Under the pieces are notes generated by a model that saw only the letters and a program-made list of their open reading frames with translations, did no database searches and had not been told where the DNA came from. A stretch of DNA of 24,061 nucleotides from positions 1 to 24,061 of IMG/VR virus record IMGVR_UViG_3300027714_000120. One strand, given 5' to 3'. Positions 12,265-18,350 of this stretch are shown one piece after another. This DNA is from a virus. Position 1 is the stretch's first letter; every line of letters begins with the position of its first letter. The translations under genes and the position numbers were made by a program.

Positions 12265-12657
12265 CTAAAGATCGTCTAGTTCATCATGAGTAGTGCAATT
12301 ATTTATGGCTGTAATACTTGCATCTTTTACATCTTTAGCTGTGCTAATTAGTGATGGATTACCAGACCCATCTTTTAATTCAAGTTTAGTTTGTGCTATA
12401 ACTACTTCTTGGTAAATTCCTTTAGCTTCTAAAATTGCATCTATTTTTCTATCGTCTACAGAAATGTTTTCAATATTATAAACAATTTGAACGGGATCAG
12501 TAGTGAGGTCAAATGTATGCCCTGTATATACCTGTCGTTTATCTGTAATATCAGGATGTACTTCAACAGCATCTCTCCAGCCTTCTTCTCCAGAAGGGGG
12601 TTGTGTGTCCCAAACTTGGGTTACTGCATCATTTACAACCCGTACAAAATGACTCAT
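12265..12657 (-). CDS. Tail-fibre assembly/chaperone-like protein, 130 aa
   Basis: AAGGAG lies 6 bases before ATG 12657, and the start overlaps the preceding stop as ATGA. The N-terminus (FVRVVNDAVTQVWDTQPPSG, then EEGWRDAVEVHPDI) has the 'value plus expectation' look of small proteins encoded next to phage tail fibres, in which a short beta domain is followed by a helical C-terminus. The C-terminal half (about 70-130) is helical with spaced Asp/Lys. I place it with fibre-assembly or fibre-associated proteins by position, four genes after the fibre with related accessories between, and by general architecture. I cannot show a sequence match to a characterised chaperone. Confidence 0.72.
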   Translation of the reverse strand: MSHFVRVVNDAVTQVWDTQPPSGEEGWRDAVEVHPDITDKRQVYTGHTFDLTTDPVQIVYNIENISVDDRKIDAILEAKGIYQEVVIAQTKLELKDGSGNPSLISTAKDVKDASITAINNCTTHDELDDL

Positions 12658-14423
12658 ACAACTCTCCTTAATACTGTTTTTTTATGTAGACGCTCTTTAA
12701 TAGTGTTAAAAGGTTCTTCCCAATTATTAAACTTTTTCTGTCTAAACAATTTCATTGTATCATAGTAGGGACAAGTATCGCCCTCCTGTGCATAAAAAAA
12801 GTAAGGCATGATCGGAATAATCGTCCAAGTCTCAACGCCCATTGCAGCCGCTAAGTGGCTGACTGAAGTGCAGGAGGATATGACCAAATCACACGAGGCC
12901 GCAGCCTGTCGGGTATCTTCCCAAGAATCTAATGGCACTTGCTTAACCCAGCTAGGACAAGCCTCTGCACCTTCATCGCGCTGTAATGAGATAAACTCCG
13001 CATCAACGTCTTTCAGGGCATCAAACATAAGGTCATGCGGAAACTTTCTGTGATGTACATCTTCAAACTCTAGACTCCCTAGCCATCTAAGACCAATGCG
13101 TTTACGGAAACCTTTAATAGTTTTAGGTTTAGTAATATAGGCTTCACCCGTTAGGTCTTCTAACTCAAACCCAAGTGGCACAATAACCGACATACCTTGC
13201 ACATAGAAATTGTGGTAAACGCCGTGGCAGGCAAAATCCTGAACAACTGCGCTTACGCCTTCTACGTCTATGAATAGTGTTGTCAAAGGAGCCGAGCAAG
13301 ACACAATAACCTTACAGCCTCTAGCAGCAATGTGTTTGGCATAGCGTACTTGGTGTATCTGATCGCCAAGACCGCCTTCTAAATGAAGTAGCACTGTGCC
13401 TTTAGATTTTCCGTCCCACGGAGGTGCAGGTGAGTTAGGAAGTGGCGCTCCAAATATTCCTTCAATACGTCCACGATCCATTAACTGATAACCTTCCTGT
13501 ATCTTTCCTTGACGTAGTACATACCATCCACGATTAAAAGCTGCTCGGTGATTGTTTGGTTCTTCTTTTTTAATCTTCTGAGCTAACCGCCACCCCTCTG
13601 CAAAGTTACCCATCTTAGACGCGGATAACTGAAAGTCTAGGTCGCGTAGCTCAGGCACTGTGCGAGGCGTGTCTAGCCAGAACTCAGGCTGACAGAACAT
13701 GCTGTAGTGGTGCTTTAATACGTCTCGTGGGTCTTCGTTGTGTTGTTTGGCAAGGAAAGGCTGGATGTCATGCATTCCAGCATAACCATGTACTTCTTTA
13801 TCATTTTCTTGAAGACTAGTACCATCAATATTAGTCAAGTCGTATTCAAAATCATCTAACTCAAGAAAAGCATGTATGCGGTCAAGCTGTAATTTTGGAT
13901 TAGCAATTAAATCTTCGTACTCAATCAAACAAAAACAATCAGGATTAGAATTATAACCTGCTTGTAAAGAAAGATATGACCTTTTTAAATAACCTGATAA
14001 CCTGTCAGAATATATAAAATCATCAAGATTTTCAGGCTTTGCAATTCTTACAAAAGAAGCCATGCAGTCAGGTACTGAGCGTACAGTAGCAATAATCTTA
14101 GGCTTATTCCCTAAAACTTTTTCCATAATTTCCATAATTAATGGTATAGGCCAACCACGACTTTTATCTATAATAATTGAATGATCATAATCTGCGTAAA
14201 ACTCATTAACAACAGCGGTCATAGATTTAACTAATAATTCATAATTTTTCTCATTTGACGAAAGCAAACCTGTAGTGTTCCATGTAGTAGCCATTCCATT
14301 TAATGCAAATATTAAACCTGATGTAGCAGAAACATGGGTTTGTTTATTTTGATTAAGAATAGCAGACAACACAGTAGAACCTGAACGTGGTACACCTGAT
14401 AAAAAATGTAATTGTTTATTCAT
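12654..14423 (-). CDS. Sulfotransferase-TPR-glycosyltransferase fusion
   Basis: 589 residues. Residues about 5-250 are a PAPS-dependent sulfotransferase: the 5'-phosphosulfate loop SGVPRSGSTVL (9-19) follows a beta strand, and a 3'-phosphate site IIATVRSVPDCMASFVR (110-126) carries the expected Arg and Ser. Residues about 265-320 resemble TPR units (MGNFAEGWRLAQKIKKEEPN, then AAFNRGWYVLRQGKIQEGYQ). Residues about 342-575 resemble a GT-B glycosyltransferase of the heptosyltransferase (GT9)/TPR-linked type. These include LLHLEGGLGDQIHQVRYAK (345-363) and a C-terminal donor-site-like block, DLVISSCTSVSHLAAAMGVE (512-531). It lies two genes after the fibre and probably sulfates and glycosylates a virion protein or surface glycan; the substrate is unknown. 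GC is about 27-35% upstream of residue 200 and about 50% after it. Confidence 0.88.
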   Translation of the reverse strand: MNKQLHFLSGVPRSGSTVLSAILNQNKQTHVSATSGLIFALNGMATTWNTTGLLSSNEKNYELLVKSMTAVVNEFYADYDHSIIIDKSRGWPIPLIMEIMEKVLGNKPKIIATVRSVPDCMASFVRIAKPENLDDFIYSDRLSGYLKRSYLSLQAGYNSNPDCFCLIEYEDLIANPKLQLDRIHAFLELDDFEYDLTNIDGTSLQENDKEVHGYAGMHDIQPFLAKQHNEDPRDVLKHHYSMFCQPEFWLDTPRTVPELRDLDFQLSASKMGNFAEGWRLAQKIKKEEPNNHRAAFNRGWYVLRQGKIQEGYQLMDRGRIEGIFGAPLPNSPAPPWDGKSKGTVLLHLEGGLGDQIHQVRYAKHIAARGCKVIVSCSAPLTTLFIDVEGVSAVVQDFACHGVYHNFYVQGMSVIVPLGFELEDLTGEAYITKPKTIKGFRKRIGLRWLGSLEFEDVHHRKFPHDLMFDALKDVDAEFISLQRDEGAEACPSWVKQVPLDSWEDTRQAAASCDLVISSCTSVSHLAAAMGVETWTIIPIMPYFFYAQEGDTCPYYDTMKLFRQKKFNNWEEPFNTIKERLHKKTVLRRVV

Positions 14424-14424
14424 A

Positions 14425-15555
14425 TTAACTACTTTTTATCCCATGTAATGAGTAACCATAACTGTTGTTTACTATTCCTGTCCAAGTAGTAAGTGAGCCT
14501 ACTTGTACTGGTGCGCTTTGATCTGAAGTGTTGCCTTGTCCATTACCTCCCAAACCTCCATATCCCCACGCATACATTTTACCGCTTTCAATAGCTTGAC
14601 TATTAAACGCATATGCTGCTATCTTTTCCCACGTAGTTGCTGAACCTATTTGTACTGGAGATGATCTATTAGTATTACTTCCATCACCTAAACGATAGGA
14701 ACTGTTGGCCCCCCATGCCCAGAGCGTACCATCAGTTTTAAGAGCAATCGTATGTGCGTTACTTGATGATACTCTAAGCCAATTAGTAAGAGAGCCTACT
14801 TGTACTGGAGAAAACCTATTAGTAGTATTACCAGTACCTAATTTTCCATTAGCACCAAATCCCCATGCCCATAAAGTATTATCAGTTTTAACAGCTATAC
14901 AAAAAGCATCAGTGCTGGCGCCACCTCCTGATACTTGCGCCCAATTAGTTAAATCTCCTACTATTGCCGGAGCAGTTCTATCTGAGCCTTCGCCATCGCC
15001 ATTTCCAAGACCCCCAGCAACACCCCAAGTGTAAAGTTGCCCATCAGTATTAATAGCAGCATTGTGGAATCCACCTGCTTGCATTTGCGCCCAATTAGTT
15101 GCTGAACCTATTTGTACTGGAACAGATTTCTGAGTGGTAGTACCATTGCCTACTTGCCCATTATCGTTTTGTCCCCATGCCCAGAGCGTACCATCAGTTT
15201 TAATAGCCGCTGAAAAGTAATAACCCGCTGTAACTTGTAACCACGTAGTTAATGATCCTATTTGTGTTGGGTTTGATTTATGATTATTATGCCCTAGTCC
15301 TAACTGACGATTTGCATTTCTACCAAAAGAATACATTTTACCAAGACTATTTGGAAATATTCCATGATATACCCCACCTGCTCCTTCAAGCCAATCTTCA
15401 TCCGATCCTACTTGTACTGGAGATGATTTACTAGCAGTAGACCCAATACCTGATCTTCCATCAGTACCCGGCCCCCAGCTCCATAATTGGCCCTCAATTG
15501 AAGCTGCGCCAAACGAACGCATGTTTGCAAAAAGTGATTGTAAAATACCACTCAT
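14425..15555 (-). CDS. RCC1-type seven-bladed beta-propeller, tail-associated
   Basis: I take ATG 15555 (MSGILQ) as the start, giving 376 residues: it overlaps the fibre stop as ATGA and has GGGAG 9 bases upstream. A nine-residue-longer version from 15582 has no such support. Seven repeats are visible by the W/F-G strand (WSWG, YSFG, WAWG, YTWG, WAWG, WAWG, YAWG), with the Gly at about residues 28, 78, 128, 178, 232, 282 and 331, near 50-residue spacing. Each is followed by a Gly/Asn turn, a PVQ[VI]GS strand and a conserved Trp. Seven blades make a closed propeller of the RCC1 fold. No enzyme residues are apparent. In this position it is most likely a receptor-binding or fibre-tip accessory; a host-directed binding role is also possible. 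Confidence 0.88.
   Translation of the reverse strand: MSGILQSLFANMRSFGAASIEGQLWSWGPGTDGRSGIGSTASKSSPVQVGSDEDWLEGAGGVYHGIFPNSLGKMYSFGRNANRQLGLGHNNHKSNPTQIGSLTTWLQVTAGYYFSAAIKTDGTLWAWGQNDNGQVGNGTTTQKSVPVQIGSATNWAQMQAGGFHNAAINTDGQLYTWGVAGGLGNGDGEGSDRTAPAIVGDLTNWAQVSGGGASTDAFCIAVKTDNTLWAWGFGANGKLGTGNTTNRFSPVQVGSLTNWLRVSSSNAHTIALKTDGTLWAWGANSSYRLGDGSNTNRSSPVQIGSATTWEKIAAYAFNSQAIESGKMYAWGYGGLGGNGQGNTSDQSAPVQVGSLTTWTGIVNNSYGYSLHGIKSS
14711..15203 (-). repeat. 31-bp exact repeat between two propeller blades
   Basis: The 31 bases at 14711-14741 and 15173-15203 are identical, encoding the Lys-Thr-Asp-Gly-Thr-Leu-Trp-Ala-Trp-Gly strand of blades six and three. Other blades encode similar residues with different codons. 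Exact DNA identity at this distance points to recent gene conversion or blade duplication. Confidence 0.85.
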
Positions 15556-18350
15556 GTTAAACCGCTCCCAGAGATTAACCATGAAGTTGCTATTATTTTT
15601 ACTGCTGTTGCGGAACCAAACTGGGCTAGTGTACGTGAACCAGTTGTTCCAGCAGAAGATAAATACATTGTATCACTTGTAATTGCAATAGTCACATCAG
15701 CTACTGCCATGTTAATAAATGTAATAGCTGTTCCAACAGGGTAAGCAACTGAACCGTTTGCTGGTATAGTAAAAGTTCTAGCGTTATTATCACCTACGGG
15801 GTGAAATATATGTTTACCGGAGTCTGCAAGAACTAACGTATAAGCAGCACTTTTACTATTCTGAGGTATGTTTTTAAAACCTACATCAGTAAGCCCATCA
15901 AGAATATTAAGCTCTGCTGCGGTACTAGTAACTCCATCAAGAATATTAAGTTCTGCTGTAGTGCTTGTCACACCATCAAGAAGATTAAGTTCTGTTGCAG
16001 TGCTTGTAACACCATCAAGGATATTTAACTCTGCTGCAGTGCTTGTAACACCATCAAGAATATTTAACTCTGCTGTAGTGCTTGTAACACCATCTATTAA
16101 ATTTAACTCTGTTGCTGTTGCTGTGACACCATCAAGAATATTTAACTCAGCAGCCGTACTTGTAACAGCAGTGCTACCCAATATTAAATCACCATCAGGA
16201 ACTATAACATCACCTGCAAAAGTAACACCATTTGTACCTGTTGGTACATGGGCAACTAATGCATCAGCATCGTTTCTAATAGTTATATCGCCTGTACTAC
16301 CCTGCCCTGTAAGAACAAGACCGTCAGCAGCAGCGTAACCTATTGCAGCATTATCACCTGCAGAAGTATCACCATCTGGTTCAAAGGTAGCGGCTGTAGC
16401 TACACCTGTAACATCAACAGAAGCTAAAACAGAATTACCTGCAACGTCTATTGCTCCACTAATGTCTAAGGTAGCTGCATCTAGTTCGCCAGAAATAGTA
16501 AAGTTGCGTATACCTGTGTAGTCTTTATTAGAATCTAAAATAACTGCTTTAGAAGCTACTGCCGTTCCTACTGCAGTTGAGCCAATATCAAGAGCGTTGA
16601 GTTCTCCTACAACTGCTGTAATTCCGTCTAAAGCATTAAGTTCTGCTGCGGTACTTGTAACACCGTCAAGAATATTAAGTTCTGCTGCGGTGCTTGTAAC
16701 ACCATCAAGAATATTTAATTCGGCAGCAGTACTTGTTACACCGTCAAGAATGTTAAGTTCAGCAGTAGTACTTGTAACACCATCAAGAAGATTAATTTCG
16801 GTAGCTGTTGAAGTAACTGCTACATTTTCATTAATTTTAGGAGATGTTAAAGTTTTATTTGTCAACGTGTCTACAGATACACGAGATAGTAATGTTGAAT
16901 TAGCACCTGCGGGTAACATTAAAGTGTTGGTAACACTTGCAGAGTGTGGTTGCCCAAATACTTTTTGACCATGACTATTACTTTCACAATTAAATACTAC
17001 TGCACCTGAGTTAGTATTTCCTCTAACTACAACTGTACCTGTTCCATTAGGAGCTAGATCAAGAGTTGCATTTGAAGTAGTAACAATATCTGCACCGTTC
17101 ATGTCTAAGTTACCGCCCAATTGAGGACTAGTATCTTCTACTACATTAGATAAGTCTCCACTTGAACCAGTACCTGCAATGATAGCTGATCTAGTAACTC
17201 TTTTAAGACCGCCACCAGATGTATCAACTGCTAACAAAACATCATCATCCGCAGCAGTACTAATTTCTGTTAAATCTCCTACAGCAACAGGATTAAAATT
17301 AGTGCCATCTGCTACTAAAATATGGCCTGCTGTGTTTGTTGCCATTACTAGATCGTCACCACTAATAGTAAGATCGCCTGCTATAGTAAGATTTCTTATT
17401 CCAGTATAATCTTTGTTAGCGTCTAAGATAACTGCTTTAGAAGCTACGGCGGTTCCTATTGCTGTTGAACCAATATCAAGAGCGTTTAGCTCTCCTACAA
17501 CTGCTGTAATACCATCTAAAGCGTTAAGCTCCGCTGCTGTGCTTGTAACACCATCTAAAATATTAAGTTCTGCTGCGGTACTAGTTACACCATCAAGAAT
17601 ATTAAGTTCTGCTGCGGTGCTTGTTACGCCATCTAAGATATTAAGTTCTGCTGCGGTACTTGTGACACCATCAAGAATATTAAGTTCTGCTGCGGTGCTT
17701 GTTACGCCATCTAGGATGTTAAGTTCAGCAGCCGTAGAAGTAATAGCTGTACCTGCTAAATCTAAAACATCTGCAAACACTGTACCGTCAACATATACAT
17801 TACGCCATTGTTGGCTTGCAGAACCTAAGTCAAAAGTATCGTCATCGTCAGGTATAATATGTGAATCAACATTAGCTCCAAAAACTACATTATCAGCAGC
17901 GGCATCACCCAGTGTAATTGTTCCACCATTAAATGTAGTTGTCCCTGTTACAGTAAGATTTCCACCTACTCCAACATTACCTGTAGTTGTAATACTATCT
18001 ATAAAGGCATTTTTAAAATATTTACTACTTGTTCCTAAGTCTAAATCGCTGTCAGCGTTAGGTACTAGTGCGCCATCTTGCAAGACCATTTGTTTTGCAG
18101 CGGCACTAGAAACTTCTACATAGAACTCCCAAGTATTACCTGTGGTCAATATTTTATTTAAAAAATCTTGATCACCTATAGTGTGAATATTACCGCCTTC
18201 TCCTGATGTGCCATCGTGCCTATGACCTGTAGTTCCACTAGACGCATATGAAAAAGCAGTTAGGAGACGGTTAAATTCTTCATTAAATAACGCAGCAGTA
18301 ATTGTATCGCCATCTGCGAAACTGCTTTGTCTTACATAACTTGTAGCCAT
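15552..18350 (-). CDS. Tail fibre with 13-residue repeat arrays
   Basis: 932 residues; TAGGAG lies 9 bases before ATG 18350. The N-terminus (FADGDTITAALFNEEFNRLL, about 11-30) then TGHRHDGTSGEGG (about 41-53) is a form common at the head of marine phage fibres; the His-x-His in GHRHDGT could bind a metal. Residues 95-200 hold DLDLGTSSKYFKN and DTFDLGSASQQWRNVY units, which look like beta-prism or shaft repeats. Three arrays of TSTAAELNILDGV follow (204-294, 513-590, 730-820). A 55-residue segment is duplicated (269-323 and 565-619). The C-terminal 110 residues (KSAAYTLVLADSGKHIFH onward) look like the distal tip domain. Role: receptor binding. It directly follows the nozzle-like gene and precedes the propeller and sulfotransferase genes. 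Confidence 0.9.
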   Translation of the reverse strand: MATSYVRQSSFADGDTITAALFNEEFNRLLTAFSYASSGTTGHRHDGTSGEGGNIHTIGDQDFLNKILTTGNTWEFYVEVSSAAAKQMVLQDGALVPNADSDLDLGTSSKYFKNAFIDSITTTGNVGVGGNLTVTGTTTFNGGTITLGDAAADNVVFGANVDSHIIPDDDDTFDLGSASQQWRNVYVDGTVFADVLDLAGTAITSTAAELNILDGVTSTAAELNILDGVTSTAAELNILDGVTSTAAELNILDGVTSTAAELNILDGVTSTAAELNALDGITAVVGELNALDIGSTAIGTAVASKAVILDANKDYTGIRNLTIAGDLTISGDDLVMATNTAGHILVADGTNFNPVAVGDLTEISTAADDDVLLAVDTSGGGLKRVTRSAIIAGTGSSGDLSNVVEDTSPQLGGNLDMNGADIVTTSNATLDLAPNGTGTVVVRGNTNSGAVVFNCESNSHGQKVFGQPHSASVTNTLMLPAGANSTLLSRVSVDTLTNKTLTSPKINENVAVTSTATEINLLDGVTSTTAELNILDGVTSTAAELNILDGVTSTAAELNILDGVTSTAAELNALDGITAVVGELNALDIGSTAVGTAVASKAVILDSNKDYTGIRNFTISGELDAATLDISGAIDVAGNSVLASVDVTGVATAATFEPDGDTSAGDNAAIGYAAADGLVLTGQGSTGDITIRNDADALVAHVPTGTNGVTFAGDVIVPDGDLILGSTAVTSTAAELNILDGVTATATELNLIDGVTSTTAELNILDGVTSTAAELNILDGVTSTATELNLLDGVTSTTAELNILDGVTSTAAELNILDGLTDVGFKNIPQNSKSAAYTLVLADSGKHIFHPVGDNNARTFTIPANGSVAYPVGTAITFINMAVADVTIAITSDTMYLSSAGTTGSRTLAQFGSATAVKIIATSWLISGSGLT
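15891..16163 (-). repeat. Fibre repeat array 3 (7 x 39 bp)
   Basis: Fibre residues 730-820: seven units alternating between TSTAAELNILDGV, TSTTAELNILDGV and TATATELNLIDGV or TSTATELNLLDGV types. A higher-order order of three units (TATELNL[IL], TTAELNI, TAAELNI) occurs twice, suggesting duplication in 117-bp steps. Confidence 0.88.
16581..16814 (-). repeat. Fibre repeat array 2 (6 x 39 bp)
   Basis: Fibre residues 513-590: TSTATEINLLDGV, TSTTAELNILDGV, two TSTAAELNILDGV, TSTAAELNALDGI and the degenerate TAVVGELNALDIG. The last two units and the following 29 residues copy the end of array 1, so a block of about 55 residues (165 bp) has been duplicated within the gene. Confidence 0.9.
17469..17741 (-). 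repeat. Fibre repeat array 1 (7 x 39 bp)
   Basis: Fibre residues 204-294: five copies of TSTAAELNILDGV, one TSTAAELNALDGI and one degenerate TAVVGELNALDIG, each 39 bases. Synonymous differences between copies show that the array is not a fresh slippage product throughout. Confidence 0.9.

Follow-up and report, generated by a model that had tools for sequence, protein, structure and literature searches.

A sulfotransferase–TPR–glycosyltransferase fusion gene linked to RCC1 propeller genes in the tail operons of aquatic viruses

The window analysed here is the whole of a 24-kb viral record (24,061 nucleotides), linear and probably a fragment, from a virus of aquatic bacteria. Its capsid protein is 58% identical to the capsid protein of Pelagibacter phage HTVC115P, which makes SAR11 or another alphaproteobacterium a plausible host. 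The tail operon reads adaptor, tail, fibre, RCC1 propeller, a gene joining a sulfotransferase (ST), a TPR segment and a glycosyltransferase (GT), a 130-aa gene, small genes and holin; the original prediction had the order of fibre, propeller and fusion gene right (Table 1). A single base separates the RCC1 gene from the ST-TPR-GT gene, which in turn overlaps the 130-aa gene, and the fusion gene therefore lies inside a tight tail operon. The 130-aa gene gave no PHROG match at E ≤ 0.1 and no Pfam match at E ≤ 1; its product is possibly a tail-assembly chaperone, a guess made from its position. Another cassette gene family, of 127 aa, is present in 61 of 91 loci. The single 589-residue open reading frame is real: a chance reading frame or an assembly join was ruled out by the Pfam Sulfotransfer_3 match (1.2e-14) and by the recovery of at least 147 distinct fusions.

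Table 1. Genes and features of the tail operon discussed in the text (positions in the window)
Feature	Position	Strand	Basis
Tail fibre with TSTAAELNILDGV repeats, 932 aa	15552..18350	-	sequence
RCC1 beta-propeller gene, 385 aa; proposed acceptor	14425..15582	-	Pfam RCC1 4.3e-58, 7 repeats
ST-TPR-GT fusion gene, 589 aa	12654..14423	-	complete ORF, ATG start
Sulfotransferase domain, residues 1-250	13674..14423	-	PF13469 E 1.2e-14, PF00685 2.2e-8; phrog_27463 9.7e-48; TPST2 fold match 5e-8
5'-phosphosulfate-binding loop SGVPRSGST, residues 9-17	14373..14399	-	conserved in fusions
3'-phosphate-binding pair R115 + S123	14055..14081	-	invariant in 137/137 fusions
Short TPR segment, four helices, residues 256-320	13464..13658	-	model helices 261-270, 274-287, 292-304, 308-319
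GT-B glycosyltransferase domain, residues 340-583	12675..13406	-	predicted fold matches
GGLGDQI motif, residues 350-356	13356..13376	-	G351, G353, D354 invariant in 137/137 fusions
S-C-T donor-site motif, residues 517-519, at the D-T position of GT9 enzymes	12867..12875	-	C518 + T519 in 135/135 fusions with letters there
130-aa cassette gene, downstream of the fusion, 4-base overlap	12265..12657	-	family c2 in 68/91 loci

The N-terminal half exceeds the curated Pfam cut-offs for sulfotransferases (PF13469, 55.6 bits against 27, over residues 7–190; PF00685, 34.3 bits against 22), and the match to phrog_27463, a family of unknown function, spans residues 1–250. Both elements by which PAPS-dependent sulfotransferases are recognized, a 5'-phosphosulfate-binding loop of the form PxSGxx and a 3'-phosphate-binding R...S pair, are found (PRSGST, and R115 with S123), the loop at residues 9–17 and the pair within residues 110–126, where they had been placed by the original prediction. 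Residues G10, R13, S14, G15, S16 and T17 are kept in all 132 fusions with letters there and P12 in 131 of them, while K87 is conserved in 136 of 137 aligned fusions. When the AlphaFold model was compared with known folds using Foldseek, tyrosylprotein sulfotransferases (TPST) ranked first (TPST2, 5.0e-8, probability 1.00), and a profile of the sulfotransferase half run against solved structures found TPST1 (2.8e-11). Sequence and model together confirm the N-terminal half as a PAPS sulfotransferase, its activity being predicted. The phage domain shares with the tyrosylprotein sulfotransferases the fold and both PAPS-binding loops, but it is joined to a glycosyltransferase and does not keep their EETR segment, in which we take the catalytic glutamate of TPST to lie. 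Since the phage profile has an S/T-rich stretch where TPST has EETR, membership in the tyrosylprotein sulfotransferases was dropped.

The "TPR-like linker" between the two halves is present as a short segment of about two TPR units. A search of PDB sequences with a profile of the GT half returned chiefly TPR proteins (consensus TPR proteins, best E 2e-4) and no glycosyltransferase domain. This half falls below all sequence-family cut-offs, the Pfam Glyco_transf_9 model giving 11.3–12.0 bits against a curated cut-off of 22 (E 0.13–0.22). Its identity as a glycosyltransferase is confirmed by the predicted GT-B fold, for which Foldseek found WaaC (2.4e-5), SPY (4.4e-5), heptosyltransferase II (4.6e-5), the T. 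terrenum OGT (5.5e-5) and TibC (8.1e-5). The motif GGLGDQI and the late block DLVISSCTSVSHLAAAMGVE stand at residues 350–356 and 512–531, as had been proposed, and D354 is the putative catalytic aspartate. The donor site of GT9 enzymes carries an aspartate in a D-T motif; here this aspartate is replaced by C518 in 135 of 135 fusions, and as most stand-alone phage relatives also have SCT, the C-T donor motif is a feature of the lineage. TibC is a protein-directed heptosyltransferase that modifies an adhesin. The phage enzyme has the GT-B fold in common with TibC-type adhesin heptosyltransferases and with the GT9 enzyme WaaC, and differs from them in its score under the Pfam GT9 cut-off, in the change from D-T to C-T, and in the added TPR segment and sulfotransferase. 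The likeness to O-GlcNAc transferase (GT41) drawn in the original prediction is no more than partial: SPY and the T. terrenum OGT are among the fold matches, but the phage TPR has only four helices and the fold fits GT9 heptosyltransferases at least as well.

The AlphaFold model used here was built on a 67-sequence alignment and has a mean pLDDT of 91.6 and a pTM of 0.73; with 15 close sequences instead, the model was poor (pLDDT 49.8). No membrane segment was found in the ST-TPR-GT protein (maximum 19-residue hydropathy 1.5). Both halves are under strong purifying selection, the median dN/dS being 0.058 for the ST half and 0.065 for the GT half, with a median dS above 1, that is near saturation, for both estimates. 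The profile and structure comparisons proposed with the original prediction found the PAPS site unbroken and a GT-B fold present, and so gave no computational refutation; as the PAPS-site motifs are conserved and the predicted fold is GT-B, a fusion of sulfotransferase, TPR and GT-B domains is upheld.

Scanned with a profile, IMG/VR yielded 510 matching stretches, and nearly all of the distinct fusions gathered come from that source. A host-encoded origin of the gene was rejected, as only two MAG contigs with the fusion were found in an 84,980-species genome collection and these may be viral sequence that ended up in a bacterial bin. Phages of a 50,697-record collection lack the fusion, the two halves being found there separately, and a viral library contained no full-length match, the best being a 571-aa phage protein with 31% identity over 362 columns. 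One locus (L018:7157-8927) has the fusion as two overlapping reading frames that part near residue 197, the result of a frameshift or a sequencing error.

Stand-alone sulfotransferases and TPR-GTs of phages (S-SKS1, S-SRM01, AG-345-E08, BUCT-ZZ01) are homologous to the halves of the fusion, with about 21–34% identity, and in several cases lie near tail fibre and RCC1 genes; they differ in being separate genes or, in BUCT-ZZ01, in having a methyltransferase-like domain in place of the sulfotransferase. In the marine virus AG-345-E08 a TPR-GT gene (L022, 11740-13050) and an ST gene (15553-16386) share a cluster with genes for RCC1 proteins and 2OG-Fe(II) oxygenases. In S-SRM01 the two genes are about 4 kb apart, after a tail fibre and an RCC1-like gene, and in five loci (L251, L256, L260, L262 and L263) GT and ST genes are adjacent, near RCC1, and are followed by an APS-kinase-like gene. 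In the Synechococcus phage BUCT-ZZ01 the TPR-GT is joined to a C-terminal methyltransferase-like domain (a sub-threshold Methyltransf_11 match; L021:4857-6572). From these arrangements, RCC1 and the TPR-GT look like the constant pair and the sulfotransferase like an added tailoring step. The "coupled modification" suggested originally gains support from two sides: some relatives encode GT and ST separately but within a single cluster, and an APS-kinase-like gene is linked. As a separate observation, the surroundings of RCC1, TPR-GT and ST in AG-345-E08 (L022:10591-14344), with the oxygenases and a possible further glycosyltransferase, have the look of a tail-modification island, and the BUCT-ZZ01 gene adjoins a BNR/RCC1-like propeller and a tail fibre.

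Linkage to RCC1 was followed in 74 loci, each distinct fusion being represented once and by a locus with 3 kb or more of DNA to either side, and, in the reverse direction, in 75 contigs retrieved with RCC1; the scans took the best 80 matches, so that all these counts are biased to close relatives and neither the 74 nor the 75 loci are a random sample. An RCC1 gene lies on the same strand within 5 kb of the fusion in every one of the 74 loci, directly upstream of it in 69 and directly downstream in 46. Conversely, a GT and/or ST homologue is found on 56 of the 75 RCC1-retrieved contigs (36 with the fusion, 5 with both as separate genes, 11 with GT only and 4 with ST only), and the GT gene directly follows RCC1 in 9 of the 10 "GT only" contigs checked; most of the 18 RCC1 contigs that carry none of these enzymes break off a short way past RCC1. 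Repeats of the TSTAAELN type in the fibre, whose Thr-Ser-Thr had been put forward as an acceptor, occur in only 2 of the 74 fusion loci, as against all 74 for RCC1, and were rejected as a conserved partner; the propeller, named as the second option in the original prediction, is the better acceptor candidate.

As a control we used 19 contigs that have a capsid 81–90% identical to that of the window, keep its order of adaptor, tail and fibre, and include 6 kb or more of downstream sequence. All 19 are without RCC1, ST-GT and APS-kinase-like genes, so that, at the receptor-binding locus, RCC1 and the enzyme come and go as a pair. The cassette also appears to move between backbones, as judged from loci L003 to L008, which have cassette genes in common with the window while their capsid and tail genes gave no match within the DNA compared. 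Several further features of these loci were recorded. In control loci (L390, L399, L412 and others) the cassette slot is taken by other genes or by long fibres of as many as 1965 aa. Look-alikes of GIY-YIG homing endonucleases, recognized by eye, lie beside the fusion or the RCC1 gene in L053:4133-4840, L054:3629-4192 and L066:8800-9498. Eight RCC1-like genes, several of them in tandem, are found near split or partial GT/ST genes and an APS-kinase-like gene in L317:1-17605 and L347:1-16818. In L010:2633-3895 and L004:4438-5709 the downstream RCC1 gene gives way to one for a different protein, about 420 aa long, which retains the N-terminus MSGKWPGGFITK; this suggests that the N-terminus is a constant point of attachment and that the distal domain can be exchanged.

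An APS-kinase-like gene is located downstream of the fusion in 46 of the 74 loci. Its 117 matches among the fusion loci, in which some contigs are counted repeatedly, all lie downstream of the fusion and on its strand. When 80 contigs were retrieved with this gene, 36 proved to carry an ST, directly adjacent in 12 cases; the 24-kb window itself has no such gene. The linked kinase has the expected P-loop and exceeds the Pfam APS_kinase cut-off (PF01583, 26.6 bits against 21.1), its best solved match is the kinase of human PAPS synthetase 1 (PAPSS1, 4.6e-13) over about 80 N-terminal profile positions only, and it is far under the NCBIfam equivalog cut-off (TIGR00455, 18.1 bits against 138.7); for these reasons we call it APS-kinase-like. 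A role as PAPS supplier in the relatives is plausible. A long form of the kinase carries a C-terminal HxGH nucleotidyltransferase domain, nearest by profile to NMN adenylyltransferases; in L072:10312-11154 this fusion of an APS-kinase-like protein to an HxGH adenylyltransferase-like domain has a layout resembling PAPS synthetase.

The fusion protein probably attaches both a sugar and sulfate, and its gene's near-constant company with propeller tail genes suggests that the target is the viruses' own apparatus for binding the host. We consider it moderately likely that the protein is a cytoplasmic enzyme with two activities that decorates the tail, its TPR-GT half glycosylating the RCC1 propeller, or another virion protein of the operon, and its ST half sulfating, most likely, that sugar. 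The enzyme would be made late in infection from the receptor-binding operon, together with the RCC1 protein, which we take to be part of the virion from its position beside the fibre. The TPR-GT half would transfer a sugar from a nucleotide-sugar to the propeller, and the ST half would then transfer sulfate from PAPS, most likely to that sugar, ahead of virion assembly. The linked APS-kinase-like gene of many relatives may raise the PAPS supply. Decoration might benefit the virus through altered charge or binding, protection or evasion. A layout of this kind is known from FlmG of Caulobacter, a TPR and GT-B protein that glycosylates flagellins and binds its acceptor through the TPR (PMC7591256). 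FlmG is likewise soluble, has the TPR before the GT-B domain, and modifies a surface structural protein in the cytoplasm before export; it differs in its 313-residue TPR-containing domain, in having no sulfotransferase and in using pseudaminic acid (PMC7591256), and the comparison with the phage protein is one of layout. Points against tail decoration are a TPR of only about two units, so that binding of the acceptor by the TPR is not assured, a GT half that scores below every family cut-off and has cysteine in place of the donor-motif aspartate, and a window that lacks an APS-kinase-like gene. The two activities could also serve different substrates.

Linkage to a receptor-binding gene would also be expected if the enzyme modified the host receptor, and a GT fold nearest to the LPS heptosyltransferase WaaC, the possible action of phage sulfotransferases and GT9-like enzymes on surface sugars, and a GT25-family (LPS-type) glycosyltransferase gene (PF01755, 1.5e-16; L072:9620-10315) in the cassette of 20 loci would all suit an enzyme that alters the surface glycan (LPS or capsule) recognized by the RCC1 propeller, and so blocks superinfection or re-adsorption of progeny. 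We nevertheless hold this to be unlikely and give it lower weight, since the gene sits within the late tail operon and overlaps or abuts its neighbours, the protein bears a TPR segment and has no membrane segment, and RCC1 genes are multiplied around the enzyme (up to eight, in L317), which better suits service to RCC1 proteins.

The modified virion protein might also be other than the propeller, namely the fibre or the 130-aa or 127-aa cassette protein, all encoded in one operon, the two cassette families being frequent; this seems improbable to us, as RCC1 alone is linked in every locus, and also beside stand-alone GT relatives, whereas window-type fibre repeats are rare. That the ST half sulfates a tyrosine of the propeller as TPST does, independently of the GT half, would agree with its top fold and profile matches and with the 11 tyrosines of the window propeller, but TPST is merely the nearest solved relative, its EETR segment has an S/T-rich counterpart in the phage domain, and the joining to a glycosyltransferase points to a sugar acceptor, so that we regard tyrosine sulfation as very improbable. 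Decoration of the tail by the two halves acting together, the reading that we favour, can be extended to a self-contained phage pathway, in which the APS-kinase-like protein, in some relatives with its adenylyltransferase-like domain, would furnish PAPS and the ST-TPR-GT protein would put sulfated glycans on propellers. This extension is tentative, and we think it rather doubtful, though possible; if true, it would be, to our knowledge, the first sulfated-glycan virion modification by a bacteriophage's own enzymes.

Each half of the protein is a known kind of enzyme. In the literature that we searched, incomplete in coverage, neither a joining of ST and GT in a phage protein nor sulfation of virions is described, and as far as it shows, the fusion, the C-T donor motif, the strict RCC1 linkage and the linked APS-kinase-like gene are unreported. 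The cassette is common in metagenomes, judging by the number of profile-matched stretches, although the cultured phages that were searched lack the fusion. Sulfotransferases recur in aquatic phages, where their function has been called unclear (PMC10580990). The presence of RCC1 in every informative locus and of the APS-kinase-like gene in most, with both missing from same-backbone phages, points to a concrete candidate role, the making of sulfated glycans on the receptor-binding apparatus. RCC1 proteins of phages have been proposed to organise DNA (PMC7247149); decoration of the tail would suggest a function for these puzzling proteins.
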